From an archaeon (lineage in GTDB: Archaea > Nanobdellota > Nanobdellia > Pacearchaeales > GW2011-AR1), in contig JABHWZ010000014.1 in assembly GCA_018657525.1 (NCBI GenBank), forward strand, positions 1 to 63,627: a stretch of DNA of 63,627 bases, in the 5' to 3' direction. The notes beneath the pieces were generated by a model that was not told the DNA's origin, did not search any database, and was given only the letters and a program-made list of their open reading frames with translations. Shown here one piece after another: positions 4,453 through 22,879 of this stretch. Numbering within the stretch: position 1 is the stretch's first letter; every line of letters starts with the position of its first letter. The translations under genes were made by a program, and so were the position numbers.

Positions 4453-4592
4453 GTTCTTTTTTTGAAAAAAGAACCCCGAGGGAATTGTTCATAAGATTGC
4501 AAGAGAAAACGATTCTCACTCAAAATTTCATCAGAAATTTTCAATATATTTTTCTTTTGCACTGTAGATTTTCTTTTTAAAAAGAAAATCCC
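4453..4592 (+). repeat. Structured dispersed element, copy A (one full, one truncated)
   Basis: The full copy spans 4480-4592. GGGAATTGTT pairs with AACGATTC through one G-T wobble, followed by an AAAATTTC-ATCA-GAAATTTT hairpin, an AT-rich spacer ending CACTGTA, and a GATTTTCTTTTT/AAAAAGAAAATC hairpin closed by CCC. Immediately before it, 4453-4476 is the terminal hairpin (GTTCTTTTTT/AAAAAAGAAC, then CCCC) of a second, otherwise missing copy. The element lies between adk and ndk, both plus strand. Confidence 0.8.
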
Positions 4593-4596
4593 AAAC

Positions 4597-4604
4597 TTTA
4601 TAAA
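4597..4604 (+). promoter_or_regulatory. TATA box of ndk
   Basis: TTTATAAA lies just after the repeat element and ends 22 positions before the ATG at 4626. Confidence 0.6.
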
Positions 4605-4625
4605 CTAAAAATTATAAAATACCTA

Positions 4626-5105
4626 ATGGAAGAAAAGACTTTAGTATTATTAAAACCCGACGCTCTAGTTAAAAGTTTAACAGGGGATATTCTAAGTATG
4701 ATTTCTGAAACCAAATTAAAAATAGTCGGAGCAAAAGTAGTAAAAATAACTCGAGAATTTGCAAAAAAACACTACTCTGAATTAGCACCCAATTTAAAGA
4801 AAAAATTTGGAGAAGAAAAAGGACAAGAAGTATTTGAGAATGTTTTAGATTATATCCAAGGAAAATATCATACAGATAGAATTTTAGCATTAGTATACAA
4901 AGGAGACAAAGCAATAAAAAAAATTAGAGATATTGCAGGGGAAACCAATCCTGAAAAAGCACATCCGATTTCAATTCGAGGAAAATACGGAAGACTACAT
5001 TCTCAAACACAAGTAATGGAAAACGTAGTTCATTGCTCAGCTGATTTAGATAGTGCAAGCAGAGAAATCAATTTGTGGTTTAATTCTAAAGAAATGGTTG
5101 AATAA
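4626..5105 (+). CDS. ndk: Nucleoside diphosphate kinase
   Basis: 159 residues. It transfers phosphate from ATP to NDPs through a phosphohistidine. The N-terminus TLVLLKPDAL is the family signature, NPEKAHPISIRGKYG corresponds to the NPxxAxPGTIRGDFG segment, and the active-site histidine is H136 in ENVVHCSAD. The canonical motif is NxxHGSDS; here Cys follows the histidine and the last Ser-Asp-Ser is altered, so activity is likely but the active-site loop is unusual. The segment around residues 52-85 is longer than in bacterial enzymes, as in other DPANN and archaeal forms. It neighbours adenylate kinase, suggesting a nucleotide-phosphate pair. Confidence 0.92.
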   Translation: MEEKTLVLLKPDALVKSLTGDILSMISETKLKIVGAKVVKITREFAKKHYSELAPNLKKKFGEEKGQEVFENVLDYIQGKYHTDRILALVYKGDKAIKKIRDIAGETNPEKAHPISIRGKYGRLHSQTQVMENVVHCSADLDSASREINLWFNSKEMVE

Positions 5106-5129
5106 AATTCTTTTTTAATAAATTCAAAA

Positions 5130-5546
5130 TCAATCTTTCAAAACCTGATAAATATCTTCTTTCATTAACCTTTCTCTAGAAATTCTACCCCCCGCAACTA
5201 AATCCATAATATCAGCTGTTTGCTTTAATTTTTGCAACTCTGAAACACTACTTGTTTCTTGATCAAGATAAACACAATAAACCATTCTACAATTATATTC
5301 ATTTCTAAAAACATCCCATCCAAAATAATTCTGACCACATCCAGGACATTTATCTGATTGCAAAAGAATCGCATTTCCACCCTCACCCTCAAAAACATCT
5401 GCTCGAGTTTTCTCTCCCAAATTAACCTGCCTTAAAACTTCTCTAGAATTTTGTAATCTTTGATTTCTTTCTTCAATAGCTTTTGATCTATCCTCTTGAC
5501 TAGGAATATTTAAAACCATTTTCATTTTTGTAATAGTAGTTCCCAT
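5130..5546 (-). CDS. Small zinc-knuckle protein, last gene of the radA operon
   Basis: 138 residues from the ATG at 5546, unrecognised. The N-terminal half is a charged helix (about residues 16-50). KCPGCGQNYFGW in the middle has a CxxC knuckle, with further cysteines in NCRMVYCVYL that could complete a zinc site. The start at 5546 is chosen because it follows the stop of the preceding gene by 1 nt, the same packing seen between the other genes of this operon. No secretion signal or membrane segment is present. A role connected to RadA is possible from context only. Confidence 0.65.
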   Translation of the reverse strand: MGTTITKMKMVLNIPSQEDRSKAIEERNQRLQNSREVLRQVNLGEKTRADVFEGEGGNAILLQSDKCPGCGQNYFGWDVFRNEYNCRMVYCVYLDQETSSVSELQKLKQTADIMDLVAGGRISRERLMKEDIYQVLKD

Positions 5547-5547
5547 T

Positions 5548-5832
5548 TTAATTATAACCACGCATTTTATTTAAGTGTTTCTTAGAAACCTCACAAATAT
5601 CTTCAAGAGGATATTCCCTTCTAACACTTTTTACCCCATAAAAACTTCCAGCCCCATCAGAATAAAAATTAAATCCATCTCCCTCAAGAGAACTTCCAGA
5701 ATTACAACACTTTAGAACTAACAACTTTAAATCAATCCCTCCCCTATTTTCCTCAGCAGAAATAACTCTTGTCAAATAAATTAAATCATTTTCTCTATGA
5801 AACACATTCTCTCCTACACTAAATTTTTCCAT
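5548..5832 (-). CDS. Small unrecognised protein in the radA operon
   Basis: 94 residues starting MEKFSVGENVFHRENDLIYL. The ATG at 5830-5832 lies 1 nt after the radA stop, so the upstream open frame inside radA is not used. The sequence looks like a small beta-rich fold (VGENVFHRE, YLTRVISAEE), with two adjacent cysteines (LKCCNSG) and a glycine-rich turn. I recognise no family. Tight packing between radA and the zinc-knuckle gene indicates one transcript. Confidence 0.65.
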   Translation of the reverse strand: MEKFSVGENVFHRENDLIYLTRVISAEENRGGIDLKLLVLKCCNSGSSLEGDGFNFYSDGAGSFYGVKSVRREYPLEDICEVSKKHLNKMRGYN

Positions 5833-5833
5833 T

Positions 5834-6868
5834 TTAAGGTTTATCGTCGCCAACACCAGCATCAGTAACCCAGAACACAGTTTCATTATCTGGAAGATTT
5901 GGAGAATCAACTAGCTTTGCAACTCTTGAACCTTGCTTCCCTCTTCTCAAATAAATTCTATAAGTTGAAGCATGTCCCACAATATTCCCTCCAATTGCAG
6001 TAGTGGGATCCCCAAACATTTGCGCTGGATTTGCCATAACTTGATTTGTAACATAAACCGCTAAATTATGTGTCTCAGCTAATTTCATTAAATCATGCAT
6101 ATAACGATTAAGTTTCTGCTGTCTATCTGCCAACTGACCTCGCCCAGCAAACTCTGCCCTAAAATGAGCAGTTAAAGAATCCACAATAACTAATTTAATT
6201 GGCTCTCCTTCTTTAATCATCTCTCCAACCTTCTCTAGAAGTAACATTTGATGGTCTGAATTAAATGCGCGAGCAACCAAAATATTTTGTAAAACCTTTT
6301 CTGGATTTGCACCAAGTTTTTCTGAAATCTGTTTTATTCTTGCCGGCCGAAAAGTTCCCTCAGTATCGATAAAAACACACTTACCATTTGCGCCTCCCTT
6401 CTCCAAGGGCATCTGAACATTAACTGCCAAAGTAGAACCTAACTGAGTTTTTCCAGAACCATAAGCCCCGTAAGCCTCAGTTATAGCTCGACTTTCTAAA
6501 CCTCTTCCTCCCAGAAGATCATCAAAAGCTTTACTTCCAGTAGTAATGAATGAAGCATTAGATCTTTTTTTTGCAAAAGACATTCCATCAGTAAATCCTA
6601 AGTCTAATAAATCCCTCGCTGCCTGAATAGCCTTTCTTGCAACACCCGCACTAACCCCTGCAGTATCACTTAAAACAGCCGGACTCATCACCGCTAAAGA
6701 CATTAAATCATAAACTCCTGCAGTCTCTAACTTCGCAGCAACAGCAGGACCAATCCCAGGCAAATCAGTTAACTCTGGTTCTTTCTCAATTTTTTTCTTA
6801 GGAATTTTTTTCTCCTCACCCTCAACAGCATCTTTAATCTTTTCTACTTCTGTTTTTTTAACCGCCAT
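5834..6868 (-). CDS. radA: DNA repair and recombination protein RadA
   Basis: 344 residues, the archaeal RecA/Rad51 recombinase that forms nucleoprotein filaments on single-stranded DNA. Residues 33-90 hold the N-terminal helix-hairpin-helix domain (LTDLPGIGPAVAAKLETAG). The Walker A motif GAYGSGKT is at 134-141, Walker B LVIVDS at 226-231, and AFNSDHQMLL and TNQVMANP belong to the core. The length is normal for archaeal RadA. The lysine-rich first 30 residues are a variable extension. The start overlaps the stop of the upstream gene by one base (TAATG), and two small genes follow with 1-nt gaps, giving a four-gene operon. Confidence 0.97.
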   Translation of the reverse strand: MAVKKTEVEKIKDAVEGEEKKIPKKKIEKEPELTDLPGIGPAVAAKLETAGVYDLMSLAVMSPAVLSDTAGVSAGVARKAIQAARDLLDLGFTDGMSFAKKRSNASFITTGSKAFDDLLGGRGLESRAITEAYGAYGSGKTQLGSTLAVNVQMPLEKGGANGKCVFIDTEGTFRPARIKQISEKLGANPEKVLQNILVARAFNSDHQMLLLEKVGEMIKEGEPIKLVIVDSLTAHFRAEFAGRGQLADRQQKLNRYMHDLMKLAETHNLAVYVTNQVMANPAQMFGDPTTAIGGNIVGHASTYRIYLRRGKQGSRVAKLVDSPNLPDNETVFWVTDAGVGDDKP

Positions 6869-7350
6869 TATTTATGTCCTCCATATTCTTCAATTTTAGA
6901 ATCTCTCCAACCCTTATAATCTTCCCAATTAGAAGTCCTCCAATCAAAACCCTCTTCCCTACAAACATTCTCTACAAAACCCCAAACAGCAGCAAGTTGA
7001 TCCTGACGATTGGCTCCAATACTATTATTTGTCTTCAATGCTTCTCTAAAACGATCCAATAAATCACAATTTAATTGAATTAAATTTCCTTCCATGAAAT
7101 CAACATCCTCTTGATTAATTTTAGCAACAGTCATATAACGAAATCCCTTGGGTGCAAGAGAAGAACCCTCATTTTTCTTGCAATCCCTAATCCAATATTC
7201 TGCATCCCAAATTCCTGCGGTCCCAACAAAAGAAGGATGAAAAAAATCAGGTGATCTAAAACATAAACTTTCACAATCTATTTTCTTATCGCCCCCTTCA
7301 AAAGAACTGCCCTGAGAATGTTTAACTAAATATAAATTTTTAACAACCAT
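6868..7350 (-). CDS. Unrecognised protein, first gene of the radA operon
   Basis: 160 residues from the ATG at 7350 (MVVKNLYLVKHSQG). It is a soluble, tryptophan- and cysteine-containing protein with motifs such as GTAGIWDAEYWIRDC, FRYMTVAKI and WRTSNWEDYKGW. There is no membrane segment and I recognise no family. An alternative in-frame codon lies 9 nt upstream, but the TATA box at 7371-7379 is 21 positions from the chosen ATG. It heads the operon with radA, so a link to recombination or to oligomer regulation is possible but only by context. Confidence 0.65.
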   Translation of the reverse strand: MVVKNLYLVKHSQGSSFEGGDKKIDCESLCFRSPDFFHPSFVGTAGIWDAEYWIRDCKKNEGSSLAPKGFRYMTVAKINQEDVDFMEGNLIQLNCDLLDRFREALKTNNSIGANRQDQLAAVWGFVENVCREEGFDWRTSNWEDYKGWRDSKIEEYGGHK

Positions 7351-7370
7351 AAAAGACAAAACTAAAATCT

Positions 7371-7379
7371 CTTTATAAG
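7371..7379 (-). promoter_or_regulatory. TATA box of the radA operon
   Basis: On the minus strand CTTATAAAG ends 21 positions before the ATG at 7350, which fixes the start of the first operon gene. Confidence 0.6.
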
Positions 7380-7430
7380 GATTTATATTGAGAAAAACAG
7401 ATTTTGGAAAATACGTTCAAAAAAAATTTG

Positions 7431-7692
7431 GGGGAATCGTTCGCAGGAAACAATTAAAAGAAACGTCTCATTCATAAATCTCATTAGAGATTAATCAACA
7501 TATTTTTCTTTTACATGGTAGATTTGCTCGAAGAGTACACCTTGCGTGCTCTTTTTGAAAAGAAAAGGGGGAGGGCCGGGAATCGTTCGCAGGAGGCAAA
7601 GAGAAAACGATTCTCACTCACAAATCTCTGACGAGATTTGTCCACATATTTTTTTCTACCACTGTAGGTTCTTTTTTTGAAAAAAGAACCCC
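7431..7692 (+). repeat. Structured dispersed element, copies B1 (decayed) and B2 (intact)
   Basis: This gene-free stretch (7380-7694) is almost wholly two tandem copies. B1 (7431-7571) starts GGGGAATCGTT but its first hairpin has lost pairing, and its last hairpin carries an insertion (GCTCGAAGAGTAC...GTGCTC). B2 (7578-7692) is intact: GAATCGTT/AACGATTC, ACAAATCTC-TGAC-GAGATTTGT and GGTTCTTTTTT/AAAAAAGAACC, closed by GGG...CCC. B2 ends 3 nt before the stop of the YdjM-like gene. Confidence 0.82.
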
Positions 7693-7694
7693 AT

Positions 7695-8153
7695 TTAGAA
7701 AATAGAAACTAACCAAACAGAAATTAAAACAAGATTAATAAGAAACAAAGAAATAAACAACGTCTTTTCAAAAACCCCTCCTGTAGCAATACCTCCTCTA
7801 GAAATATTCTTCAACGGATAAAAGGGACGAATCCCATCAATAGTAAAACTATCTGCTAATAAATGCGAAGAATAACCCACAAAAAATCCCAAACTAACAA
7901 TTGGAAAAAACAAAACTAAAATTAAAGTTATAACTAATAAAAAGGTAAAACTATGGATTACTCCCCTGTGCTTTGTGAAAAATTGTAAAACTCTCGCCAC
8001 TTTTTTATGTCCCATGCTTGAAAATCTAGAATCTACATCAGGGATATAAGTCGCAACAAAAACAAAAACTAAGAAAATTAATTTATATTCAACAAAGGGC
8101 AAAAGCAATAAAGCAAGTAACAAACTAACCATTAAATGAGTCTTAATTAACAT
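7695..8153 (-). CDS. YdjM/DUF457-family membrane metal-dependent hydrolase
   Basis: 152 residues with four to five hydrophobic segments. Conserved polar residues match the YdjM (LexA-binding inner membrane protein, PF04307) family: TH near the N-terminus, IPDVDSRFS, KHRGVIHSFTF, GYSSHLLADSFT and GIRPFYPL. The invariant HRGxxHS and SHLLxDxxTxxGxxxxxP patterns are both present, so it is probably an active metal-binding membrane enzyme of unknown substrate. A TATA-like GTTTTATAAC 22 nt upstream of the ATG supports the start. Confidence 0.8.
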   Translation of the reverse strand: MLIKTHLMVSLLLALLLLPFVEYKLIFLVFVFVATYIPDVDSRFSSMGHKKVARVLQFFTKHRGVIHSFTFLLVITLILVLFFPIVSLGFFVGYSSHLLADSFTIDGIRPFYPLKNISRGGIATGGVFEKTLFISLFLINLVLISVWLVSIF

Positions 8154-8190
8154 AAAAAAATAAAGAATTGAAAAGTTATAAAACTATCTT

Positions 8191-8478
8191 CTATCTTCTA
8201 AAGAGAGGTAAACAAATATCCATTATCCCATCTAAATCAACTATTTCTCCAAAGAAATTCGTTAAATCTGTTTTTTTACCAAAAATAAATCCACGTTTTT
8301 CTGCTTGTTGATTCAAAACATCTAAATCTGGAAAATTATGCTTAAGTTGATGAGCAGTTTCTTTTGAACCTCCTGGAGGAGTGGCATCAGTTAATGAATC
8401 GTATTGATGAGCCAACCTAATAACTTCACTCCCGATTTCAGGGCGATACTTCAACATAACAAAATACATTTGATCCAT
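8191..8478 (-). CDS. Small unrecognised protein
   Basis: 95 residues, MDQMYFVMLKYRPEIG onward. It is predicted mainly helical and soluble with no cysteine motif of note and no signal. The codon structure is normal and a TATA-like TTAAAAAC lies about 20 nt upstream, so it is likely real. It sits between the RPA-like gene and the YdjM-like gene on the same strand. No function is suggested. Confidence 0.5.
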   Translation of the reverse strand: MDQMYFVMLKYRPEIGSEVIRLAHQYDSLTDATPPGGSKETAHQLKHNFPDLDVLNQQAEKRGFIFGKKTDLTNFFGEIVDLDGIMDICLPLFRR

Positions 8479-8524
8479 TAAAAAAAAGACAATACTAAGT
8501 TTTTAAGTGTTGCTGTTCATAAAT

Positions 8525-9466
8525 CTACTTATCCAAACTAGCAAACAACTCATCTAAATTAATCTCTTGCAAATCATTAATTATAAATTCTGGATTATTA
8601 AAAAAATTGTTCATTCTCACATTTCCAGAAAAAACCATTTCCTTTCCAAGAATATTTTGTTTTTGTTGTAAAAGCAAATCTGCATTTTCTAATTCGCTTA
8701 ACCCTAATTTAGGCAAAGTATCATGAAATAAAACCGCCCGCATTGTTTCTGTTCCATCATCTAAAACAATATTTATCAAAGCTCTTTTTTCAGGAACAAC
8801 TTTCCCATGTTCATTGCAATTAAATCCATCTCCCTCAGGAACCGCCTTCTTTTTACACTCAGGACAAACATGAAAAAATCTAGGATCAAAACTCTGAACA
8901 ACAAACGCCCTTACAGAAACCGCATCACCAACATTAAAATCAACTATATTTTTTTCCTTCAACACCTTCTCCGTTTTTACCTCACTAAGTTGTTCACTAC
9001 TAACTTTAAATTCTGAAAAACTCCCCAAATGAACCTCATTATCCCTCACATTTGCATTTCTTATCTCGACAACAATTTCTTCTTTAACATGTCCCTTCTC
9101 AATTAAATCAATATGTGTCGCATCCCATAATACTACTTTAATATTTGATGTTTCGTCAGCAACAATCATATTTGCAACTTTATTTTCCTGACCATTTCTT
9201 TCAAAAGTTCTCACAGGGAATAAATTAATTACTTTTCCCACCAAATTAACTTTCCTCATTCCAGGAATTAATTCGTCTATTTTAAACATTTCATTTTCAA
9301 AATTTATTCCAAGTTCAGCAGCAATAACTTGTGCAGCACCATCTTTAGAAATCAGTCCAGAAAGTTTAGCACATTTAGCCTCAACTCTTCGTTTAATTTC
9401 ATCTAAATCCAAATTGGCCGATTGAGCAATTCGCGCCACCATCTTTTCATAATTTACATCACCCAT
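8525..9466 (-). CDS. RPA-like single-stranded DNA-binding protein (OB folds, zinc finger)
   Basis: 313 residues from the ATG at 9466. Residues about 1-55 are helical (KMVARIAQSANLDLDEIKRR), followed by an OB fold (NLVGKVINLFPVRTF, VANMIVADET, IKVVLWDA, VRDNEVHLGSFSEF). Then comes a second domain with zinc ligands CPECKKK and CNEHGK, as in the large subunit (RPA41-type) of euryarchaeal replication protein A. It protects ssDNA in replication and repair. A TTG start 48 nt further upstream is possible, but the TATA box CTTATAAAG at 9487-9495 is 21 positions from the chosen ATG. aEF-1-beta is divergent. Confidence 0.88.
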   Translation of the reverse strand: MGDVNYEKMVARIAQSANLDLDEIKRRVEAKCAKLSGLISKDGAAQVIAAELGINFENEMFKIDELIPGMRKVNLVGKVINLFPVRTFERNGQENKVANMIVADETSNIKVVLWDATHIDLIEKGHVKEEIVVEIRNANVRDNEVHLGSFSEFKVSSEQLSEVKTEKVLKEKNIVDFNVGDAVSVRAFVVQSFDPRFFHVCPECKKKAVPEGDGFNCNEHGKVVPEKRALINIVLDDGTETMRAVLFHDTLPKLGLSELENADLLLQQKQNILGKEMVFSGNVRMNNFFNNPEFIINDLQEINLDELFASLDK

Positions 9467-9486
9467 ACCAAAATTAAAATCCCTTT

Positions 9487-9495
9487 CTTTATAAG
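9487..9495 (-). promoter_or_regulatory. TATA box deciding the RPA start
   Basis: Minus-strand CTTATAAAG lies 21 positions before the ATG at 9466. If a TTG start at 9514 were used this box would be inside the gene. A second TTTATAAA at 9532-9539 would serve that alternative, less ideally (18 positions). Confidence 0.45.
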
Positions 9496-9550
9496 CATTA
9501 TTGTATTCAGACAAGCAAACTTTTATAAATCAAATTTATTATAACAAAGC

Positions 9551-9823
9551 ATGGGAACAGCACTATTAAAAATAAAAGTTATGCCAGAATCACCAGAAAC
9601 AAACTTAGAAGAACTTCAAGAAAAAGCTAAAGAAATTTTAGAAAAAAATTCAGCAAAAGGAATCAAATTTGATATAGAGCCAATTGCATTTGGACTTAAA
9701 TCTTTGATAATAGGCTTTGGAGTTGATGAATCTCAAGAATTAGAACCAATAGAAAACGCACTTAAATCAATGGAAAACATTAGTTCTTCAGAAGTCATAG
9801 ATATGCGTAGAGCAATTGAGTAA
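9551..9823 (+). CDS. Elongation factor 1-beta (aEF-1-beta)
   Basis: 90 residues, the full length of the archaeal protein, which is the guanine-nucleotide exchange factor for aEF-1-alpha. Diagnostic segments are KIKVMPESPETNLEEL at the N-terminus, IEPIAFGLKSLIIGFGVDE in the centre and a C-terminal VIDMRRAIE. The fold is the compact ferredoxin-like exchange domain. The gene is divergent from the RPA-like gene and shares its short AT-rich intergenic region. Confidence 0.93.
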   Translation: MGTALLKIKVMPESPETNLEELQEKAKEILEKNSAKGIKFDIEPIAFGLKSLIIGFGVDESQELEPIENALKSMENISSSEVIDMRRAIE

Positions 9824-9875
9824 GATTTATTTTTCCAACAGTTAAATATATTAATACAATTTATCTAAAATAATT

Positions 9876-10532
9876 ATGTTATCAGAAGAACAAGCAAAAC
9901 AAGTTAAGGAACAATTAATCCAACAAATCAAACAAACCTTTCCTCCAGAAAAACAAGCAGAATCAATTTCTCGAATGGAGGCAATGAATCCTGAACAGTT
10001 TGAAGAATTTTTAATTCAAAATAAATTAATCCAGCCAGAAGGAGGAGCTCCAACAAATCCAGAACAACAAGCTCCCACTGCCCCACAAAAATGTATCTTT
10101 TGTTCAATAATCGACGGAGAAATTCCAACAAACAAATTAGATGAAAACAAAATAGCAATTGCAACACTAGAAATCAACCCAGTTTCAAAAGGACACTCAC
10201 TAATCATTCCAAAAAAACATTTAGAACATTCAGACAAATTACCCTCTCAAGTTTTCACTCTTGCTAAAAAAATTGCTAAAAAAATAAAAACTAAATTAAA
10301 ACCAAAAGATGTCACAATTGTTTCAGCAAATGTTTTTGGTCATTCAATTTTAAATGTCTTCCCAGTTTATGAAAATGAAAATTTAGGTTCTCCACGACAA
10401 CAAACAAAACCAGAGGAACTTGAAAAATTAAAAAATTTATTAGAAACTAAACCAAAACCTAAAAGGGTAAAAAAAGCAAAAACAAAAAAAATAGAAAACA
10501 AAAAAATTTGGCTTCCAAAAAGATTTCCTTGA
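9876..10532 (+). CDS. HIT-domain protein lacking the catalytic histidine triad
   Basis: 218 residues. Residues 1-50 are a helical N-terminal domain, 51-70 a Pro/Gln linker, 71-170 a HIT fold and 190-218 a lysine-rich tail. The HIT part has KCIFCSIIDGEIP (C73, C76 zinc ligands), INPVSKGHSLIIPKKH and LEHSD. Where active enzymes have GQxVxHxHxH, this one has GHSILNVFPV (155-164): all three triad histidines are replaced by Asn, Phe and Val. Nucleotide hydrolase activity is therefore unlikely, and a binding or structural role is inferred. The basic tail could bind nucleic acid. Confidence 0.78.
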   Translation: MLSEEQAKQVKEQLIQQIKQTFPPEKQAESISRMEAMNPEQFEEFLIQNKLIQPEGGAPTNPEQQAPTAPQKCIFCSIIDGEIPTNKLDENKIAIATLEINPVSKGHSLIIPKKHLEHSDKLPSQVFTLAKKIAKKIKTKLKPKDVTIVSANVFGHSILNVFPVYENENLGSPRQQTKPEELEKLKNLLETKPKPKRVKKAKTKKIENKKIWLPKRFP

Positions 10533-10565
10533 ACAACAATTTTTCAAAAGATACATTTAAAAAAT

Positions 10566-11411
10566 CTAAAACAAAAAATAAAATTTTGTAAACCATAAAT
10601 AAATTAAAATTAAAAAACTAATTAAAAAAACAGGCACATAAACAATCCCTTGTTTTATTTTAACTTTCTTAAACTTCTTCTGAATCAAACTTATCTCCTT
10701 ATTAGAAATACCCTCCCAATCTTGTTTAACCACTTCCCCTTTTTTTATCTTGACATTTTCAGCTAACCAATCTCCCTCCCTCAACTTATTCACAGGAATT
10801 TCTACTAACATACAACAATTTTCAATGGCTTTAGCAAATAAATAAAAATAAGGCATAATAAAAATAAATATTCCTAAAACTAAAAAAAGACTATCTATAA
10901 AATAAAAGCACATTAATAAAATTCCAATAAAAATAAATAATAATGTAAAAACTTTCTTTCGGTGCCATAGTTTATAAAATTCTTTTCTAAAACTTTTATA
11001 ATTTTTAATTGCTAAAACCAAACTCCAACAAAGCCCATAACCTGCACCGACAAATAAAAACAAAATTAAAAACAATCCAAATATTTTAACATTAATCAAA
11101 AACTCTTCGCTGAATGGCAAAATAGCCCCCAAAGCAATCATTAATTTAGCGTCACCACCCCCGAACAACCTCCCATAATAAAATAAATTTCCCAAAACTA
11201 AAAAAATACCAAAACCAATTAATCCCTGATAAAAAAAGGCAAACCCATTTGCACTTTCAGAAAACAAGCTCCAAAAAAATCTAAATCCTAAAGCAAAAAC
11301 TATTAAAGAAAAATTTAACCAATTTGAAACCTCTTTTGTTTTCAAATCCTGCAAAACTGCAAAAAGAATCCAGATTAACGCAAGACAAATTAAAAACACA
11401 ACTTCAATCAC
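10566..11411 (-). CDS. Prepilin peptidase (A24 family)
   Basis: 281 residues with several membrane segments. It cleaves class III (type IV pilin-like) signal peptides at the inner face of the membrane. The two catalytic aspartates of the family are visible: D22 in LQDLKTKEVSNW and D87 in the signature GGGDAKLM. A cytoplasmic-looking loop (MLVEIPVNKLREGDWLAENV, residues about 197-216) and a C-terminal membrane helix follow. It starts at GTG (11411), with TTTAAA 22 nt upstream. It adjoins the large set of pilin-like genes that would be its substrates. Confidence 0.85.
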   Translation of the reverse strand: MIEVVFLICLALIWILFAVLQDLKTKEVSNWLNFSLIVFALGFRFFWSLFSESANGFAFFYQGLIGFGIFLVLGNLFYYGRLFGGGDAKLMIALGAILPFSEEFLINVKIFGLFLILFLFVGAGYGLCWSLVLAIKNYKSFRKEFYKLWHRKKVFTLLFIFIGILLMCFYFIDSLFLVLGIFIFIMPYFYLFAKAIENCCMLVEIPVNKLREGDWLAENVKIKKGEVVKQDWEGISNKEISLIQKKFKKVKIKQGIVYVPVFLISFLILIYLWFTKFYFLF

Positions 11412-11458
11412 TTGAATACCCTCTTCATAAAATTTAAAACAAAAAAGAATTTATTAAT

Positions 11459-11572
11459 CTATTCCTTTACTTTTGTTCCCCGATATTTTCCACCACTTTT
11501 ATAAGGATGTTTTTTCTTTTCCTTAAACTTACGCTTTTTCTTATTTCTTGTTTCTGAATCTGCTCGTGCCAT
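11459..11572 (-). CDS. Very small basic protein
   Basis: 37 residues: MARADSETRNKKKRKFKEKK, then KHPYKSGGKYRGTKVKE. It is strongly basic (over 40 percent Lys/Arg), like a small ribosomal or RNA-binding protein, but I cannot match it to a named ribosomal protein. The frame is clean from ATG to TAG and fits between the pilin gene stop (11596) and the prepilin peptidase start. Similar tiny KKR-rich frames could arise by chance in AT-rich DNA, so confidence is moderate. Confidence 0.5.
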   Translation of the reverse strand: MARADSETRNKKKRKFKEKKKHPYKSGGKYRGTKVKE

Positions 11573-11595
11573 TTTTATTTTTAAGAATTATTTAA

Positions 11596-12129: not shown

Positions 12130-12163
12130 ATTTTATTTAAACAAACTTTATTTATAAACCTTT

Positions 12164-14740: not shown

Positions 14741-15760
14741 ATAATCGGATTAGGAACAGGATTGATTTTTGGAGGGAAATATTTATGGAAACAAGATAAA
14801 AACCAAAAAGATACAGAAATTTCTAAAACAGAACAAATTTCAGAACAAGCACCTAAAAACCATCCTACCCCTTCTTTAATGGATTCAATACTCTGCACTA
14901 AACCACCCACAGAAGAACCAACAACTAAAGAAAAGATACTCACTCCAAAAGAAATAAATAAAATATTCGAACCAACTCCCAAACCAATAACAACACAAAA
15001 GACATTATCCACAACTCCTCCCGCAAATAAAAAAGAATATCAACCCCTTGAAATAAGGGGATATAATTCTAAATCTATAACAAAAGTAATTCCTCGCGAT
15101 TGGAATTTTGACATAAATCAAGCTACAACAAAGATTTATCCCGGAAGAGAAGACAATTTTTTAGTGGAAATTGTTTTAAATTTAAACTCCTCAGCAAATT
15201 TAAGGAAAAGAATAGATGAAAAGCAAACAAAAAATTTAACTTCAGTCATGATATTAAAAAACAATAATGCAACTTATCTTCAATGGATTGGAGAAATGTC
15301 TCAAGAAGAAAAAGAACGAGGAGAACAATATATCCAAGAAAAAATTAAACAAATAAACCCAGAAACTTATGGCCCCCTTTTTACCAACTTGCATGAATAT
15401 GAGGGAAAAGCATTCAGGTTAAGTAAAGGCATAATGGAATACCAAGAAAAAAATGAAAATTTTCCAGATGATTTAAGTCAAATTTTTTCATATATTGACC
15501 CTAAAAACTACATATTATCAGACACCGGAACTCCCTTTCCAAAAACAGCAGAAGATGTACAAAAAGGCAATTGTGATTTTTATTATTTTAAACCAGATAG
15601 AACAGTAAAACAAAATCCTAAAAATCCGCTTATAATAAAAATCCCTCGTAGAAAGGATAGATGCCTAGATAAAATATGGGTAATAACTTGGGATCTTGAT
15701 TTGATAAAAATATCTTTACCAGAAAGGGATAGAATTTTGCAAAAATATAATCTAAAATAA
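14633..15760 (+). CDS. Membrane-anchored protein with the NSLGTPRSKFSRL N-terminal signature
   Basis: 375 residues. A short cytoplasmic N-terminus with TPNSLGTPRSKFSRL is followed by one membrane helix (VKIIGIIGLGTGLIFGGKYLW, about 32-52). A Pro/Thr/Lys-rich linker of about 90 residues comes next, then a globular domain (about 150-375). The fold is not recognised; the C-terminal part has WVITWDLDLIKI and a CDFYYFKPDR segment. It is on the opposite strand to the surrounding pilin genes. The N-terminal signature and upstream DNA are shared with the gene at 17757. The outside orientation of the large domain is inferred from the basic N-terminus. Confidence 0.62.
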   Translation: MESLPLGTQQDRHDTNTPNSLGTPRSKFSRLVKIIGIIGLGTGLIFGGKYLWKQDKNQKDTEISKTEQISEQAPKNHPTPSLMDSILCTKPPTEEPTTKEKILTPKEINKIFEPTPKPITTQKTLSTTPPANKKEYQPLEIRGYNSKSITKVIPRDWNFDINQATTKIYPGREDNFLVEIVLNLNSSANLRKRIDEKQTKNLTSVMILKNNNATYLQWIGEMSQEEKERGEQYIQEKIKQINPETYGPLFTNLHEYEGKAFRLSKGIMEYQEKNENFPDDLSQIFSYIDPKNYILSDTGTPFPKTAEDVQKGNCDFYYFKPDRTVKQNPKNPLIIKIPRRKDRCLDKIWVITWDLDLIKISLPERDRILQKYNLK

Positions 15761-15764
15761 AATT

Positions 15765-16304
15765 CTAAACTCCTTGACCCTCTAAGTCTTTAAGAGCTTC
15801 AGACATCGGGTCACTTTCAGGATCCACAACATAAGGTCTAACAGTTATTTTGTCTGCTGCAGCAAAAATTGTCAACGTTTTAGGTCCATCCCCCTTAATC
15901 AAATAAATCACATGATCAGAGAGTACAATTTCAATTTTCTTTTTTGAATTTGAACAGATCCCCAATTTTGAACAACTCTCATAATTCTGAAGAGTATCCA
16001 AAATCTTGACCCCCTCTGGACAAAAACACAAAGCTTTCTCATTCTGTTTATTAAAATCCATAAGTTTCCAACCCACCGGATTTGTCAAAAGATAATCTGC
16101 CTTACCTCCATTCTCTAATTCATTTCCTTTGTTAATAATGTTTTCTAGATGAAGTGTAGCTTGCTGTAATTTATACTGCCCCATTAAAATCCCATAAAAA
16201 CTTACTGTCAAATAGAGTAAAGCTGCAATTACTAGAACTGCAATCAAAATTTTCAAAACTTCCGGCATCAAAATTCCTTTTTTATTAAATTTTTTTTTAT
16301 TCAT
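15765..16304 (-). CDS. Type IV pilin-like protein 6
   Basis: 179 residues. The class III site FNKKG is followed by ILMPEVLKILIAVLVIAALL, with Glu at position 5 of the mature helix (ILMPE), the residue typical of true type IV pilins. The extracellular domain holds four cysteines (CFCPEG, ESCSKLGIC) and a beta-rich C-terminus. The start abuts the stop of the upstream pilin-like gene, so the two are co-translated. Confidence 0.7.
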   Translation of the reverse strand: MNKKKFNKKGILMPEVLKILIAVLVIAALLYLTVSFYGILMGQYKLQQATLHLENIINKGNELENGGKADYLLTNPVGWKLMDFNKQNEKALCFCPEGVKILDTLQNYESCSKLGICSNSKKKIEIVLSDHVIYLIKGDGPKTLTIFAAADKITVRPYVVDPESDPMSEALKDLEGQGV

Positions 16305-17414
16305 TTAAGGGAACCCCTCAATAACTCCACAATACTTAGAGATATCCTTATAATCATAATTCGTAACTCTTACTACACTACAACCAGTCCGAGCCTGCTC
16401 CCCACTTAATAAAACATCTTCACATTTTGAAAGACTAACTGCCCGATTATTAATTGCAGTTCCTTGCACAACTCCTCCTGCGATTAATATAATTCCTGCA
16501 CAAAGCGGAAGGAATTTATAACAAGTAGTTCCTGCTTCCCAGATTTTTTTTGGTGCCCCCATGATAGTTTTTATTGGAGAAATAAGTAAGCTTAAAGATG
16601 CTCCAGCCAATGCAACATTCCCAAAATTTTTCCAAACAGTAGCTTTTGTAGGGGCACTAATCTGCATAAAAAATATTGCTAATTCCTCTGTATCATCCCC
16701 TGGAGTAACAGGAGCATCAATCAAATTCACATCAAATCCATCAACTTTTATTTCTTTCTCATCCTTTTTACCTTCATCTTGTTTATAGGAACCCCCTTCT
16801 AATTTAATATCATCCTTAACTGCAAACCCTCCACTAATCCCAGTCATATATTTTGTGTAACTCACCTCTGTTCCAGCAATTTTATGAGTGTTCATATAAT
16901 TAACCGGGTCTACTTTGGATAAATCAATCTTTGAATCTAAATTCTCTTTATCAAATGCAATTCGAGAACAAATTACACAAGAAGGATAAACCCCCCCTAT
17001 CCCAAACTCTGCTTTAGTCTGCTCAAATAAACTAACTTTCCCCTCCCCCATCATAGTCCAACAATCCAAAACTTTTTGAGCAATTAACTTTTCCACGTCT
17101 GCATTCTTTTCAACTTTTGCTTTATCAACTCCCTTCTCATTCTCAAAATCCTCACACTCTGAACCAACAAATTTACTAGTCACGCAAAGCTTTTCAGTAT
17201 AACAGTTCAAAGGGATATATTTATTTCCAAAAGGAGCAGTAGCTCTTAAAATTACACTTTCATGACACGCTGTAGCATCAATCACGTCGATAAAAGCAAA
17301 TCTATAAAACAAAAAAAGCACAATAGCAAAACCCGCCAGCATGATAATTATATTTACAGATTGCGAAGACATTATCTCTGCTTTTTTATTTAACCCTCTT
17401 CTTTTCATATTCAA
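16305..17414 (-). CDS. Large pilin-like protein 7
   Basis: 369 residues. The N-terminus MNMKRRGLNKKA precedes EIMSSQSVNIIIMLAGFAIV, giving a KKA-E class III-like cleavage. A second and third hydrophobic region near residues 275-320 (NVALAGASLSLLI, LCAGIILIAGGVV) is unusual for a pilin and suggests additional membrane helices. Many cysteines (CHES, NCYTEKLC, CVIC, CEDV, CSVV, YCGV) imply disulfides. The next gene follows without spacing. The function is presumed to be a structural component of the pilus-like machine. Confidence 0.6.
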   Translation of the reverse strand: MNMKRRGLNKKAEIMSSQSVNIIIMLAGFAIVLFLFYRFAFIDVIDATACHESVILRATAPFGNKYIPLNCYTEKLCVTSKFVGSECEDFENEKGVDKAKVEKNADVEKLIAQKVLDCWTMMGEGKVSLFEQTKAEFGIGGVYPSCVICSRIAFDKENLDSKIDLSKVDPVNYMNTHKIAGTEVSYTKYMTGISGGFAVKDDIKLEGGSYKQDEGKKDEKEIKVDGFDVNLIDAPVTPGDDTEELAIFFMQISAPTKATVWKNFGNVALAGASLSLLISPIKTIMGAPKKIWEAGTTCYKFLPLCAGIILIAGGVVQGTAINNRAVSLSKCEDVLLSGEQARTGCSVVRVTNYDYKDISKYCGVIEGFP

Positions 17415-17438
17415 AATAAATTTCTCTTATTTAATAAT

Positions 17439-17558
17439 TTAACTAATTAAACGATTAATCAAAAAATAAACTCCTGCCACAATAATCACAAAAAAAAGAA
17501 TCCAAACAACTCGATTAACTAAACTTTCGGAAACATCAGCAGCACCTTTTTTTTTCAT
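17439..17558 (-). CDS. Miniature pilin-like membrane peptide, 39 aa
   Basis: MKKKGAADVSESLVNRVVW is followed by ILFFVIIVAGVYFLINRLIS: a KKKG class III-like site, then one membrane helix, with essentially no extracellular domain. The ATG at 17556-17558 uses the duplicated promoter (TTTATTAA 22 nt upstream), and the gene lies 24 nt before the start of pilin-like protein 7, so it heads that operon. Its size resembles small Flp-type pilins, but no Flp motif is visible. Confidence 0.6.
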   Translation of the reverse strand: MKKKGAADVSESLVNRVVWILFFVIIVAGVYFLINRLIS

Positions 17559-17866
17559 AAAATCTTAAACAAAAATTACTTTAATAAATTATCTAAACAG
17601 GGAATCGTTCTTCGGATTGCAAGAAAAAACGATTCTCACTCACAAATCTTGGATAAGATTTGTCAATATATTTTTTTCTACCACTGTAGGTTCTTTTGTT
17701 GAAAAAAGAACCCCAAATCTTAAAAACAAACTTTCCATTAAAATTAAATCACACTCATGGAATTAATTCCCTCGGGAAACAAACCAGCACATGAGACGTA
17801 TAACACTGATACGCCGAATTCTTTAGGAACTCCTCGCTCAAAATTCTCAAGATTGTTAAAAAAAAT
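17556..17866 (+). repeat. Duplicated bidirectional promoter and gene 5' end, copy 2 (with element)
   Basis: Counterpart of 14544-14740. Left flank TAATAAATTATCTAAA and right flank TTAAAAACAAACTTTCCATT match copy 1, but 115 bp of structured element (17600-17714) lie between them. Confidence 0.8.
17600..17714 (+). repeat. Structured dispersed element, copy C (intact)
   Basis: GGGAATCGTT opens and GAACCCC closes the unit. Hairpins: GAATCGTT/AACGATTC, ACAAATCTT-GGAT-AAGATTTGT and GGTTCTTTTGTTGAAAAAAGAACC. It sits inside the duplicated intergenic region, between two divergent start codons, and therefore in the leader or promoter of the FGE-like gene. Confidence 0.85.
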
Positions 17867-20800
17867 TAAATCTTTAGCACTTCCAATTTTTGCAGCAGCC
17901 GCATTGTATCTTTCTCCTCAAACAAATGCAGGTGAAATATATAATGAAGTTCACAAAGTGAAACTAATGGGAACAATGAATTCAAATGTTTCAAAAGCCA
18001 CACCGATAACTAGAAACTTAGCAGTTGTGGCACAACTTAAAGAAAACTCTGCAACCGAAAACCCCTCAGACTATTTTTTAAATTTAAAATATAGAATAAG
18101 CGGAGAACCAAAATTTAAAAATTCGGTAATAAAAATCCCGCCTCACTTAAAAACATATATTAATTATCAACTGCACTTTTTAGGAATTGCTCACCCTCCG
18201 GCAGTCATTATCTCCCCGCCAACAAATGAAACAATTTTTTCAGAAACCTACAAGGGAAACAAAGCGACTTCTTTATCTCAAAGTTCAAAAATGAGCGAAA
18301 TAGAATTTACAATAGCCAAATCTATATTAGACAAAACTCTAAATAAGGCCCACCCCCTAGCAAAAACAACATTCCATAAACTTGTAAAATGGGAAAAAAA
18401 CAAATACCAAAAATTCTGGCAACAAGAAGCAACAACAATAAATCCTAATTGGCAATTAACTCAAATTCCCATTTATCGATTAGCAAGATTGACCGAAAAA
18501 GAAAATCCTGGAGTTGAAAAAGGAAGATCCTTTACAATCCCAATTTCAGCAGACAATGGCAAAACTCTCGAAGGAAAATTAATACTCAAATTAGATTTAT
18601 CCCAAAATGACTTATGTGGTTCTATTAATTTTACAATTCCATTATCTGAAGAAACAAAAATAAAAAAAGATCAAGAAAGATTATGGATAAACAACCAACA
18701 TTATGGGGAATATCCTGCAGCACTAGTTTCATTAGATCAGGGAAAAGTGATTCCCCTCCCTAAAGAGGGAATGTTACCAAAAAAAATTCTCGCGGATTTA
18801 TGGATTGAACCATGCGATCCAGAAATAGGAATAATAAATTCAAAAAATGAAAATGAAATTGGAATAAAAAAACTTGGAGGAAAAGTTTCAATTTTAGAGA
18901 TTCCCAAAGCAAATTATGAGTCCATTAAAGGGCCCAATTTAGAAACACTATTATCTTCCAAAGCAGATGGAATAAGAAACCCAGAAAAAGGCACTTCTTT
19001 TTTAGTGAGGTCTAGTGAAAACCAAATTTACAAAGTTAGAATAATAGGAATCACCCCAGAAAGAACCCAAAAAGGAAGAGAATCATCTATGGCATTAGAA
19101 TTTTCAAAATTAGAAAGTTCACTGATTCCATTAAATATTACCTTACCCCCAGAAAACACTACCGCAAAAAACTTTCTAATCTGTCCAGGAGAATCTCCAG
19201 CAGGAAGTCGTCTAGCCTCGAGAAAAGAAGCATTAGAAATGTTGGGGATAGAAACAAATCCAGGAAGATCAGAAATCCCAAAAGAATCTTCAGATAAATA
19301 CAGAGCAGCAGCATATTATAAATTAAAATCAGGCACAGATATGATAATTTTTAAACAAGGTCTAAGAAACACATACGAAACTCTAAAAGAAATTAAATCT
19401 TATAATCAACGTTGGATGGATGATGATTTAATGGCAATATTATTAAATGGGCAAAATGCATTATACGTAAAAATTGATGGGAAAAAAGCAACATCTAAAG
19501 ACATTCAATCTATGGGATTACCTATTTCAGCAATAAGAAAAGAATTTGCTCCAGAACACTTCGCAATAAATCCTCTTATTAAAAAACTTGAAAATATTAA
19601 ATTGTTGGGCAAAGAAATACAAATTGAAAAAATTCCAACATGGTTTAAAGGCAATCAAGATCAAATTTCTCAAGCAAAAAAATTAGGTATCCCTGTAGCA
19701 AAGGAATATGAATTAGGCGGAGCAAAAATGAAGTTAGTTTTAATTCCAGGTAACCAAGAGATCAATCCTTTTTATCTCTCAATCTACGAAACAACAAATC
19801 AAGAGTATAAAACTTTCTATCCGAATCACACCACATTTAATATTATTGAATATGTAGATAATAGGGGAAAGAAAATCTTTCGCACAGGCACCTCAGATAA
19901 AGACAATCAACCAGCGACCCTTCTTTCAGTTAAAGAAGCAGAAGGATTTTGCGAACAAACCAGCTTAGCATTAAAAAGAAAAATTAGGCTTCCGACATCA
20001 AGAGAATGGAAACATGCTAACAAAACAACCCCTCGAAAAGGTAACTTTAAGGGAAATCTCCGCAAAACATTTTTATCGCCTAAAGCAGTAAATCCATGGG
20101 CAATAGATAACATTGATTTCACTTGCGAGGGAGGAAGATTTAACCCCAATGAATTTGGACTATATGATATGGTGGGTAATGCCTCAGAATTAACCAGCAC
20201 AAATAAAAATCAACTAGAAAGAGTTTGTGAAGGGAGTAGCTTTAAAGATGATGTGGAGTATAAAACAAAAACTCTCCCCTTAGATAAAAAAGTAAGGGGT
20301 ATGGACGTAGGCATAAGAATTGTAGAAGAACTTACCCCAGAACAATTAGCAATGCATCCGTCTCTTCAACAAAACACTTCTATTTCAAAAGAAAAAGGTT
20401 TTGTAATCCCAGAAGGAATCTCGCGCCCATATTTAATCTGCCCAGAAGAAGTTCCAGAAGGAAGTCGATTAAGAACTCCCCTAAAATATCTTAAGGAAAC
20501 CCAAGGGGATAGACAAGTAATGTACTCCTTAAATAGATCAACATTCTTCAAAATTACCCATGAACATCCTTCTGAAATAAAAATAGATACGATGAAAATT
20601 TGTCTTAAAGTAGGAAAAGCAAGCCTTAGTGCAGGAGCAATATTCTTTCTAGAAGATAATAGTATATTAACTCTACAAAAATCGAAAAAATCTTCATCTA
20701 CTAGAGAAACTGAAGCAGTAAAAGAAGCCATCAATAGAACTCTACAAAAAGTAAATCCTCCAGAATATTATGTGGAAAAAGAAGTTAGTTTAAAAGATAT

Positions 20801-21218
20801 GGATGAAAAAAATATTTTCAAAAAAGGTTTAGAAGGAGTAGCTTTAGCTCTACTGCCCAACGAAATTAATTCAATAATGGATCCGCGAAAAGATGGAACA
20901 CAAAAACTAATTTTGAATCCAAAAATGGATAATGCCCACCTATATTATTTTGCAGTTGATATGGACGGAATAAAGGAGAGAAGAATTTTCATTAATGAAC
21001 ACGAATATAACCCAGGCAATTTACAACCAAGACTTGGGTGGACTACACTCTCCCCAAACCAAGATGGAACTTTCAAACCAATAAGACGCTATTATGAAGG
21101 AGAGGGAATAATTATTCATAGAAACAGTTTAAGACAAGGACCAAATACAATTGAGATGAGAATTAAAGATACAACCGGCCAAAAAAGAACAAGTTCAGTT
21201 AGCATAATAAAAAATTAA
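17757..21218 (+). CDS. Large membrane-anchored protein with an FGE/SUMF1-like domain
   Basis: 1153 residues. The N-terminus carries TPNSLGTPRSKFSRLLKKI, then a hydrophobic segment (LPIFAAAALYLSP). Residues about 650-860 match the formylglycine-generating-enzyme-sulfatase fold: FYLSIYETTNQEYKTF, ATLLSVKEAEGFC, RKIRLPTSREWKHA, NEFGLYDMVGNASELTS, CEGSSF and VRGMDVGIRIV. Two related ICP-(G/E)ExP-xGSRL segments (about 472 and 895) flank it, suggesting an internal duplication. True FGE activity cannot be claimed, since many family members only use this fold for binding or scaffolding. It stops 1 nt before the convergent pilin-like gene. Confidence 0.75.
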   Translation: MELIPSGNKPAHETYNTDTPNSLGTPRSKFSRLLKKIKSLALPIFAAAALYLSPQTNAGEIYNEVHKVKLMGTMNSNVSKATPITRNLAVVAQLKENSATENPSDYFLNLKYRISGEPKFKNSVIKIPPHLKTYINYQLHFLGIAHPPAVIISPPTNETIFSETYKGNKATSLSQSSKMSEIEFTIAKSILDKTLNKAHPLAKTTFHKLVKWEKNKYQKFWQQEATTINPNWQLTQIPIYRLARLTEKENPGVEKGRSFTIPISADNGKTLEGKLILKLDLSQNDLCGSINFTIPLSEETKIKKDQERLWINNQHYGEYPAALVSLDQGKVIPLPKEGMLPKKILADLWIEPCDPEIGIINSKNENEIGIKKLGGKVSILEIPKANYESIKGPNLETLLSSKADGIRNPEKGTSFLVRSSENQIYKVRIIGITPERTQKGRESSMALEFSKLESSLIPLNITLPPENTTAKNFLICPGESPAGSRLASRKEALEMLGIETNPGRSEIPKESSDKYRAAAYYKLKSGTDMIIFKQGLRNTYETLKEIKSYNQRWMDDDLMAILLNGQNALYVKIDGKKATSKDIQSMGLPISAIRKEFAPEHFAINPLIKKLENIKLLGKEIQIEKIPTWFKGNQDQISQAKKLGIPVAKEYELGGAKMKLVLIPGNQEINPFYLSIYETTNQEYKTFYPNHTTFNIIEYVDNRGKKIFRTGTSDKDNQPATLLSVKEAEGFCEQTSLALKRKIRLPTSREWKHANKTTPRKGNFKGNLRKTFLSPKAVNPWAIDNIDFTCEGGRFNPNEFGLYDMVGNASELTSTNKNQLERVCEGSSFKDDVEYKTKTLPLDKKVRGMDVGIRIVEELTPEQLAMHPSLQQNTSISKEKGFVIPEGISRPYLICPEEVPEGSRLRTPLKYLKETQGDRQVMYSLNRSTFFKITHEHPSEIKIDTMKICLKVGKASLSAGAIFFLEDNSILTLQKSKKSSSTRETEAVKEAINRTLQKVNPPEYYVEKEVSLKDMDEKNIFKKGLEGVALALLPNEINSIMDPRKDGTQKLILNPKMDNAHLYYFAVDMDGIKERRIFINEHEYNPGNLQPRLGWTTLSPNQDGTFKPIRRYYEGEGIIIHRNSLRQGPNTIEMRIKDTTGQKRTSSVSIIKN

Positions 21219-21219
21219 T

Positions 21220-22512
21220 TTAACCCTTACAACAATCCTCTGGAACTCTCACACTCACCTTCCCCTTAGAAGATTTTATAACCCCATCCGGATATAATTT
21301 AAAAATCCATTCTTGGTCTCCAATAGGGAAAACCAAATTATTTGATTTATAATTCTCTAAACAAAAACAAGTTTTTCCACAAACTTTTTCTTCATCATTT
21401 AAACAAAATTGATAATTTTCATAAATACAATTCTTCCATTTTTCCATACCAAAAAATTTACATTCATGTGCAGCAAGCAAAGAGTTAACAAAACAAAATG
21501 CATTCGGATTGCCCCATTTTTCATAATAATCTGGAAAAGGGGAAATTTTATTTTTAATTGCCAAATGAGGTATGCTCCCAACCCCCGTTAACTTTGATCC
21601 AGCCTTTGCTACATTCCCCATCCTTTCAATAAAATCCAAAAAAGTAGATGAATATAAAATATTCAAAACATGCTTAAATTCAGAATCACAATTCATTTTA
21701 TTAAAATAATCTTGACACTGAGATTTTTTATTAGACATATAAAACTTATTGTAAACTTTATCCGTTCCAGTCAACCGAACAAAGGCTCTTTGTTTCCTTG
21801 CATCCCAAATAAAATCTGCAGTAGCACCAGATTTAAAAATAATCTCCAAAGGTTTTGTTCTAGGATAAAAACAATCCTCATAATCCACCCGATAAGTGAT
21901 AATTGTTTCTGTACCCTCCAAAATTCTCAACGGCAATCCATAACTATCTAACAATTCCTTAGCCACAGTATGCTCAACTTTCAATTCTTTTTCACGACAA
22001 ATCATATTCTGTTCCACGGCTAATTTTGCCCCATCTAAATTTAAAAGATTTTTTTGGCCTTGTGGATTTTTTGCCATTTTTTTGTAAGTTTCACTCGTAG
22101 TAATAAAAACAACATCATTTAATTTAAATTCTAAATTACTCAAAACGCCAATCTGAAAATTATTATTCCACTCTGTTTTATATTTATCAAACATTATCTT
22201 ATTATCCTTCAAAAAAAGTCTACTCTCAACCAGTTTAGTGCAATCTCCACCTGTACAAAAAGAAATTTTATCTGCTCTTACCAATCCAACACGATACCCA
22301 GTACTACAAAGAAGATTTATTTCAGTATTATCTCCAACATAAACTTCCTCTTCTCCTCCTGTTGGACCCTCATAACTCGGGAGCAATTTTAAATATCGGG
22401 TAAGATCCCCTTTTGTAAATAAAAAAATCATAACCACAACGAGGAGTAAGACTACCAAAGTATACTTAATAAATTTGCTTGTATGCAAGGCCTGTCCTTT
22501 TTTGTTTTTCAT
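21220..22512 (-). CDS. Large pilin-like protein 8
   Basis: 430 residues. The class III site KNKKG is followed by QALHTSKFIKYTLVVLLLVV and the remainder of the helix. The extracellular part is about 390 residues with at least 16 cysteines, several in a dense C-terminal cluster (CLNDEEKVCGKTCFC, EDCCKG). It overlaps the upstream small pilin gene by 4 nt (ATGA). A disulfide-rich tip or adhesin-like minor pilin is a reasonable inference; no named domain is recognised. Confidence 0.65.
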   Translation of the reverse strand: MKNKKGQALHTSKFIKYTLVVLLLVVVMIFLFTKGDLTRYLKLLPSYEGPTGGEEEVYVGDNTEINLLCSTGYRVGLVRADKISFCTGGDCTKLVESRLFLKDNKIMFDKYKTEWNNNFQIGVLSNLEFKLNDVVFITTSETYKKMAKNPQGQKNLLNLDGAKLAVEQNMICREKELKVEHTVAKELLDSYGLPLRILEGTETIITYRVDYEDCFYPRTKPLEIIFKSGATADFIWDARKQRAFVRLTGTDKVYNKFYMSNKKSQCQDYFNKMNCDSEFKHVLNILYSSTFLDFIERMGNVAKAGSKLTGVGSIPHLAIKNKISPFPDYYEKWGNPNAFCFVNSLLAAHECKFFGMEKWKNCIYENYQFCLNDEEKVCGKTCFCLENYKSNNLVFPIGDQEWIFKLYPDGVIKSSKGKVSVRVPEDCCKG

Positions 22513-22661
22513 CCTTTTAATCTAAATAAATTTTTTAAAAAATCTAATGCCCCCTCCCCTTTTCCTTTCAACACAAAAAAACCAACCAAAATAATCACCA
22601 AAACAACAATGGCAATAATACTCCATCCCACCATCTCAGATTCCATACCTCTCTTTTTCAT
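22509..22661 (-). CDS. Small pilin-like protein 9, 50 aa
   Basis: MKKRGMESEMVGWSIIAIVV is followed by LVIILVGFFVLKGKGEGAL and a short basic tail (DFLKNLFRLKG). A KKRG class III-like site with Glu early in the mature helix (MESE) is typical of pilins. The frame ends inside the ATG of the next gene (4-nt overlap), strong evidence that it is translated. A TATA-like ATTTATTAAT lies about 20 nt upstream. Confidence 0.65.
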   Translation of the reverse strand: MKKRGMESEMVGWSIIAIVVLVIILVGFFVLKGKGEGALDFLKNLFRLKG

Positions 22662-22696
22662 AATTCAAAAAGAGAAAACTAATTAATAAATCTATC

Positions 22697-22879
22697 GGGG
22701 AATCGTCTTCTTGTATAATTCTAAAACGACTTGGTCGCTACTTTTTTTGAAAAAAGAACCCCGGGGGAATCGTTCTTCGGATTGCAAGAAAAAACGATTC
22801 TCACTCACAAATCTTGAATAAGATTTGTCAACATATTTTTCTTTTGCACTGTAGATTTTCTTTTTGAAAAGAAAATCCC
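22697..22879 (+). repeat. Structured dispersed element, copies D1 (shortened) and D2 (intact)
   Basis: D1 (22697-22762) starts GGGGAATCGTC and ends in the TTTTTTTGAAAAAAGAACCCC arm, with the central hairpin missing. D2 (22765-22879) is complete: GAATCGTT/AACGATTC, ACAAATCTT-GAAT-AAGATTTGT and GATTTTCTTTTT/AAAAGAAAATC then CCC. D2 ends 3 nt from the stop of the FlaJ-like gene. The tandem arrangement of a damaged and an intact copy recalls copies A and B. Confidence 0.83.

Follow-up and report, generated by a model that had tools for sequence, protein, structure and literature searches.

A probable non-autonomous mobile palindromic repeat in one archaeal family

Palindromic elements of the REP and RPE types have so far been described mainly in bacteria, and the GTAG kind is known with a Y1 transposase partner. 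GTAG-tagged REPs and REPINs are bacterial repetitive extragenic palindromes, and the survey paper on REPs deals with bacterial phyla only (PMC3733652, PMC3116915). For Archaea, PMC6006769 reports no subclass of Y1 transposases other than IS200, and the CGTC repeats of the RPE type have no identified transposase (PMC3733652). Here we describe a dispersed repeat, about 115 nt long, from one archaeal family of Pacearchaeota and Nanoarchaeota metagenome-assembled genomes (MAGs). It is probably a mobile palindromic element of the non-autonomous type, and thus resembles a small genomic parasite that hops more than an RNA gene with a function.

The genome comprises 828 kb in 14 contigs and is 84% complete; the stretch analysed (63,627 nt, hereafter the window) forms its contig C7. 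The window holds four full copies and three decayed copies. The full copies were found exactly where the preliminary description had placed them, and so were the decayed ones, except that the unit it gave as 4453-4476 proved wider. The copies and the neighbouring genes that matter below are as follows.

4433-4477, + strand: unit with hairpin 3 (H3) only, that is, the core, preceding copy 1 and directly after the adk gene
4480-4592, + strand: full copy 1; hairpin 1 (H1) 4480-4517, hairpin 2 (H2, AAAATTTC/GAAATTTT) 4522-4541, H3 4567-4590 with the last G of GTAG as its closing base, CCCA end at 4593
4626-5105, + strand: ndk; start 33 nt downstream of the end of copy 1, adjoining the TATA-like TTTATAAA
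7432-7566 (to 7571), + strand: decayed copy preceding copy 2, with an additional 26-nt hairpin within its H3
7578-7692, + strand: full copy 2; H1 7578-7615, H2 7620-7641, CTACCACTGTAG 7656-7667, H3 7667-7690, CCCCA end at 7693
7695-8153, - strand: gene for a YdjM-like membrane protein (PF04307); stop codon 2 nt from the CCCC end of copy 2
17600-17714, + strand: full copy 3; H1 17600-17637, H2 17642-17663, CTACCACTGTAG 17678-17689, H3 17689-17712, CCCCA end at 17715
22697-22762, + strand: decayed copy preceding copy 4; H1 start and H3 end retained, middle gone
22765-22879, + strand: full copy 4; H1 22765-22802, H2 22807-22828, H3 22854-22877, CCCA end at 22880
22882-25071, - strand: 729-aa gene; stop codon 2 nt from the CCC end of copy 4

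The element is a composite in which H1 (GGGAATCGTT...AACGATTCTC and variants) and H2 (ACAAATCTT...AAGATTTGT and variants) precede a core unit, TTTTCTACCANTGTAG-hairpin-CCCA. The core itself consists of a T-run, CTACCACTGTAG or CTTTTGCACTGTAG, H3 and CCCA. It includes CTACCANTGTAG, which ends in the GTAG tag and is itself able to form a small hairpin; the core hairpin that follows is perfect, with the final G of the tag as its closing base. Minimum free energy folding predicted H2 and H3 in all four full window copies and H1 in three of them, the 5' half of the copy at 4480 preferring an alternative fold; fold z-scores of the window copies ranged from -2.5 to -3.4. The copies had been likened to a cloverleaf closed by GGG and CCC. 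In the predicted folds the leading GGG pairs with CTC within H1 and not with the terminal CCC, so that a closed three-arm shape is not predicted; the hairpins of each copy instead follow one another in an open chain. We therefore dropped the cloverleaf.

With nhmmer and blastn, 27 full or near-full copies were found in 19 clusters on both strands of the 828-kb genome, all intergenic and none within a confident gene; head-to-tail neighbours and tandem arrays were frequent. A single copy used as a blastn query retrieved others genome-wide with E-values down to 1e-42. These results indicate that the repeat is not due to chance.

The stems vary in a way that preserves pairing. Among 16 clean copies, both sides had changed at 8 pairs (shuffled mean 5.1, slid controls 0-2), with 31 double-change cells (shuffled mean 9.0, slid controls 0-4), and 25 copies gave 9 pairs and 52 cells compared with 6.2 and 18.0 after shuffling. 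The claim of a dispersed element with pairing-preserving stem variation thus stands, paired double changes exceeding the controls in both sets. The further step, from covariation to selection on RNA, is not supported. The H2 loops are exact reverse complements of each other in two pairs (chance 0.003): TGAATA (6 copies) and TATTCA (7), and CTGACG (2) and CGTCAG (2). Hairpin-3 types have been exchanged as blocks together with the sequence upstream of them, the flanks of the copies are not conserved, and the copies occupy every type of intergenic region. Such swapped blocks, flipped loops, unconserved flanks and mixed contexts are how a palindromic DNA repeat that is mobile behaves. Loop inversion is expected from the folding of a DNA strand and a polymerase template switch, not from RNA selection, and the flipped H2 loops point to processing as single-stranded DNA. 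Since template switching across hairpins can by itself yield paired changes, the covariation is evidence of real hairpins and no proof of selection at the RNA level.

The preliminary description had hung its case on further copies elsewhere in the genome or in relatives, and the core unit was indeed found in related genomes. When GTDB species genomes were searched with the pattern TTCTACCANTGTAGNTTCTTTT, 60 stretches matched, almost all in Nanoarchaeota or Pacearchaeota MAGs; a few matches fell within unrelated bacterial genes. Searched across the order, the core alone was present in 15 of the 200 genomes, which represent 9 of the 104 genera and a single family, at 1-15 copies each, and the reversed control pattern gave no match in these 200 genomes. 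The distribution is patchy: in genus g59, for example, 3 of 11 members carry the core. A stricter pattern run on 378 genomes of the class found the core in no family other than the window's own. The covariance model of the full H1-H2-H3 element scored above 65 bits in the window's genome only; other genomes matched it weakly, through the core, and we therefore rejected the presence of the full element in relatives. In two other genera, a AAAATTTC/GAAATTTT hairpin precedes the core, with the same arms as H2 of the window copy at 4480-4592. Outside the window's genome the left end of the core is fuzzy, and the CCCA end is fixed. One IMG/VR contig carries the core together with terminase, portal and major head genes of a tailed virus, while searches of viral contigs for H1/H2 and hairpin-3-variant patterns found none. 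The preliminary description knew of no named archaeal family with this plan; in agreement, the element had no match in Rfam at the curated gathering thresholds. Plasmid and phage collections likewise gave no match, and no paper on palindromic repeats of Pacearchaeota or DPANN archaea was found in the literature collection searched.

Evidence of insertion came from the sequences next to the core. In 17 of 60 cases the sequence directly following CCCA had a second copy upstream of the element, compared with 2.7 expected from swapped pairs; because two of the 17 are contig-end artefacts (L139 and L153) and a few are of low complexity, about a dozen are convincing. At the loci examined, these direct repeats start at the CCCA end and are 11-18 bp long. 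In the window's genome one copy only has a clear target duplication (C5:7339-7453, about 47 exact bp), and the four window copies have none above controls. At 5 of 11 direct-repeat loci, 8-11 nt of the target also occur in inverted form across the core from it. L126 and L163 show the order flank-T-E-rc(T)-rc(flank)-T, where T is the target and E the element, which is the order of a snapped-back strand.

The sites used by the core include tRNA ends, tRNA introns, positions flush with stop codons and positions just upstream of promoters. Of the 59 unique core copies found outside the window's genome, about 18 lie at tRNA genes (our count). Where the core lies at a tRNA 5' end, its target comprises the initial ~14-17 nt of that tRNA, which is thereby left intact. 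Three loci (L123, L136 and L150), and probably a fourth (L166), have core units inside tRNA introns. In the protein gene at L116, one extra 45-nt core unit is present in frame, the orthologues at L112 and L114 having one unit.

Placement relative to genes in the window's genome is sharp at one end of the element. In seven clusters a stop codon is found 1-3 nt from the CCC end. In four, that end precedes a start codon by exactly 33 nt (42 nt in a fifth) and adjoins a BRE/TATA-like sequence; gene starts came from a simple codon-usage caller, and single distances may shift. The opposite end has no comparable regularity. Among the copies listed, one of which is from the window's genome, eight follow the stop codon of a long ORF by 0-2 nt. 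The placement of the CCCA end is too regular for random insertion, which argues for a target preference, for selection or a host function, or for both.

Candidate enzymes were sought in the carrier genomes, within the limits that MAG incompleteness sets on such searches. Y1_Tnp (PF01797) had no match in the window's genome or in most high-copy carriers, and Y1 genes above the cut-off in other carriers had no core unit within the fetched flanks. TnpB exceeded the cut-off in one carrier only, and not in the window's genome. The window's genome has one clear tyrosine recombinase, which we take to be of the common Xer type. A PF00078 reverse transcriptase was found in 4 of 13 carriers, whose MAGs are incomplete; the nine others include G183 (93% complete) and G185 (15 copies). 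The window's genome has one reverse transcriptase, with no core unit near it. On these grounds a reverse transcriptase is an unlikely mover.

Among known systems, the element resembles the GTAG-tagged REPs and the Rickettsia palindromic elements. A GTAG (or GTRG) tag directly 5' of a perfect hairpin is their sequence definition (PMC3733652), and the core has this arrangement, CTACCANTGTAG followed by its short hairpin with GTAG at the 5' foot. Like these REPs, the element has many dispersed, mostly extragenic copies (27 in the window's genome, intergenic), arrays, stop-codon adjacency, occasional in-frame copies, a patchy distribution and complementary stem variants. In contrast to them, it has an archaeal host, two extra hairpins, target duplications and tRNA insertions, and no associated Y1 transposase (RAYT) was found. 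The core thus works like a REP/RPE-type mobile palindrome, and we do not claim RAYT-dependent REP membership. With the Rickettsia palindromic elements the core shares a short palindrome, in-frame insertion within protein genes (L116 versus L112/L114) and the lack of an identified transposase, whereas those elements have a CGTC tag and the core has GTAG, another sequence and size, an archaeal host and many copies at tRNA genes. IS200/IS605 ends, the hairpins of TnpA, resemble the core in a subterminal hairpin with a tetranucleotide by its foot. IS200/IS605 is not known to make target duplications, while our element has them, and neither tnpA nor tnpB was above cut-off in the window's genome; we therefore rejected an IS200/IS605 derivative. 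MITEs are likewise short, non-autonomous and numerous, but the terminal inverted repeats here are no more than GGG/CCC and a parent transposon was not found. LINE- and SINE-type retroposons share with the core a fixed 3' end, a variable 5' end and target duplications of variable length; they differ in that no reverse transcriptase was found consistently in the carriers and in the DNA-type loop inversion.

The last likeness raises the question of whether an RNA form is copied at the target, the nicked strand priming from the CCA end of the hairpin. Such SINE-like retroposition would fix one end, duplicate the target over varying lengths and leave inverted target copies by snap-back, and the fixed CCCA with a variable opposite end, the duplications of 11-18 bp and once 47 bp, the order at L126 and L163 and the one reverse transcriptase of the window's genome all agree with it. 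We nevertheless regard it as doubtful, given the nine carriers without a PF00078 match and the flipped loops, which point to DNA. Somewhat more doubtful is its fuller form, an archaeal SINE-like element whose CCA-ended hairpin RNA is target-primed into gene ends, promoters and tRNA genes or introns and moved between cells by tailed viruses. A conserved structured RNA, either a small RNA or a UTR element, selected on its fold and amplified as a gene family, would explain the real covariation, the tolerance of G-U pairs and the copies within transcripts such as tRNA introns. That reading is very unlikely when set against the absence of flank or promoter conservation, the patchy distribution, the lack of H1 and H2 in most relatives, the flipped H2 loops and the missing Rfam match; copies also lie in both orientations relative to their neighbours, several of them in divergent promoter regions.

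These divergent sites bear equally on the idea of a transcription terminator or insulator, spread because it is useful for separating transcription units. Its T-rich strand with hairpins and the regular distances to stops and starts fit, but several copies separate divergent genes, which need no terminator between them, and others lie within a coding frame or a tRNA intron, or have duplicated their target. We consider this reading unlikely, and rejected it as the main explanation because of the several divergent sites. A peptide-coding element is hardly credible. On the opposite strand many units start ATGGG right after a stop, at TAA|ATGGG, TAATGGG and TGATGGG junctions, as if translationally coupled; hairpin length, however, varies across copies from 13 to 23 nt, so that the reading frame is not kept, and these frame shifts refute it.

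The mobile palindromic repeat that we prefer has its own difficulties: no dedicated transposase was found, the placement of CCCA is non-random, a single copy in the window's genome and none in the window has a clear target duplication, and the left end is fuzzy outside the window's genome. In its favour, the element is multiplied and patchily distributed, a subset of copies has target duplications, one of three orthologous genes has an extra in-frame unit, and a tailed virus carries a copy. In the mechanism we propose, the spreading part would be the core, with its T-run, CTACCANTGTAG, perfect hairpin and CCCA end. In the window's genome two further hairpins stand before the core, and the 115-nt composite has multiplied to about 27 copies, many of them arranged head to tail. 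An enzyme supplied in trans would recognise the folded single strand and cut exactly at CCCA, and the cut element would be joined to a staggered break in a tRNA gene, in a promoter or where a gene ends. If the strand folds back and the polymerase switches template there, inverted target copies and flipped loops would result.

The results carry a caution for the study of repeats in general, since clean covariation in them can arise from the processing of DNA hairpins and not from RNA selection alone. A second puzzle, and a testable one, is why the element lies so sharply beside core promoters and stop codons. An archaeal GTAG-tagged family without a Y1 transposase, with target duplications, entry into tRNA genes and introns and a viral copy, would offer a new setting for studying how such elements move.

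A 26-nt hairpin, GCTCGAAGAGTACACCTTGCGTGCTC, was found within the hairpin-3 loop of three copies of the element, on the window and on two other contigs of its genome (C9 and C11):

Window 7526-7551: nested hairpin in hairpin-3 loop
C9 near 73,100: nested hairpin in hairpin-3 loop
C11 near 34,030: nested hairpin in hairpin-3 loop

A second nested hairpin, CGAAGCGACTCGTTCGCTAC, was located in loops at C2, C8 and C11. Both are nested small palindromes. Two further loci were recorded in this genome (G000):

Window 17757-21218, plus strand: 1153-aa protein with FGE-sulfatase domain (PF03781)
L201, G000:C8 about 207,700-208,700: reverse transcriptase, 333 aa

A block of small membrane-anchored ORFs lies near the former gene. 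At L201, a 252-aa protein is encoded upstream of the reverse transcriptase, and we take this locus to resemble a diversity-generating retroelement, as a candidate only.

The core unit makes up most of the tRNA-Val introns at loci L123 and L150, and most of the intron of the L136 tRNA, which has TCG in its anticodon loop. It is also present on a contig (L118) of a bacterial MAG labelled Bdellovibrio sp. CG10; this contig is probably archaeal and misbinned. Finally, a tailed-virus contig with terminase, portal and major head protein genes carries the core unit:

L168 (IMGVR_UViG_3300013138_000223) 7930-7963, minus strand: core unit

Its form is the same in L168 and the MAG RA.bin101, which suggests a virus-host link, with the tailed virus as a possible vehicle for the core unit.
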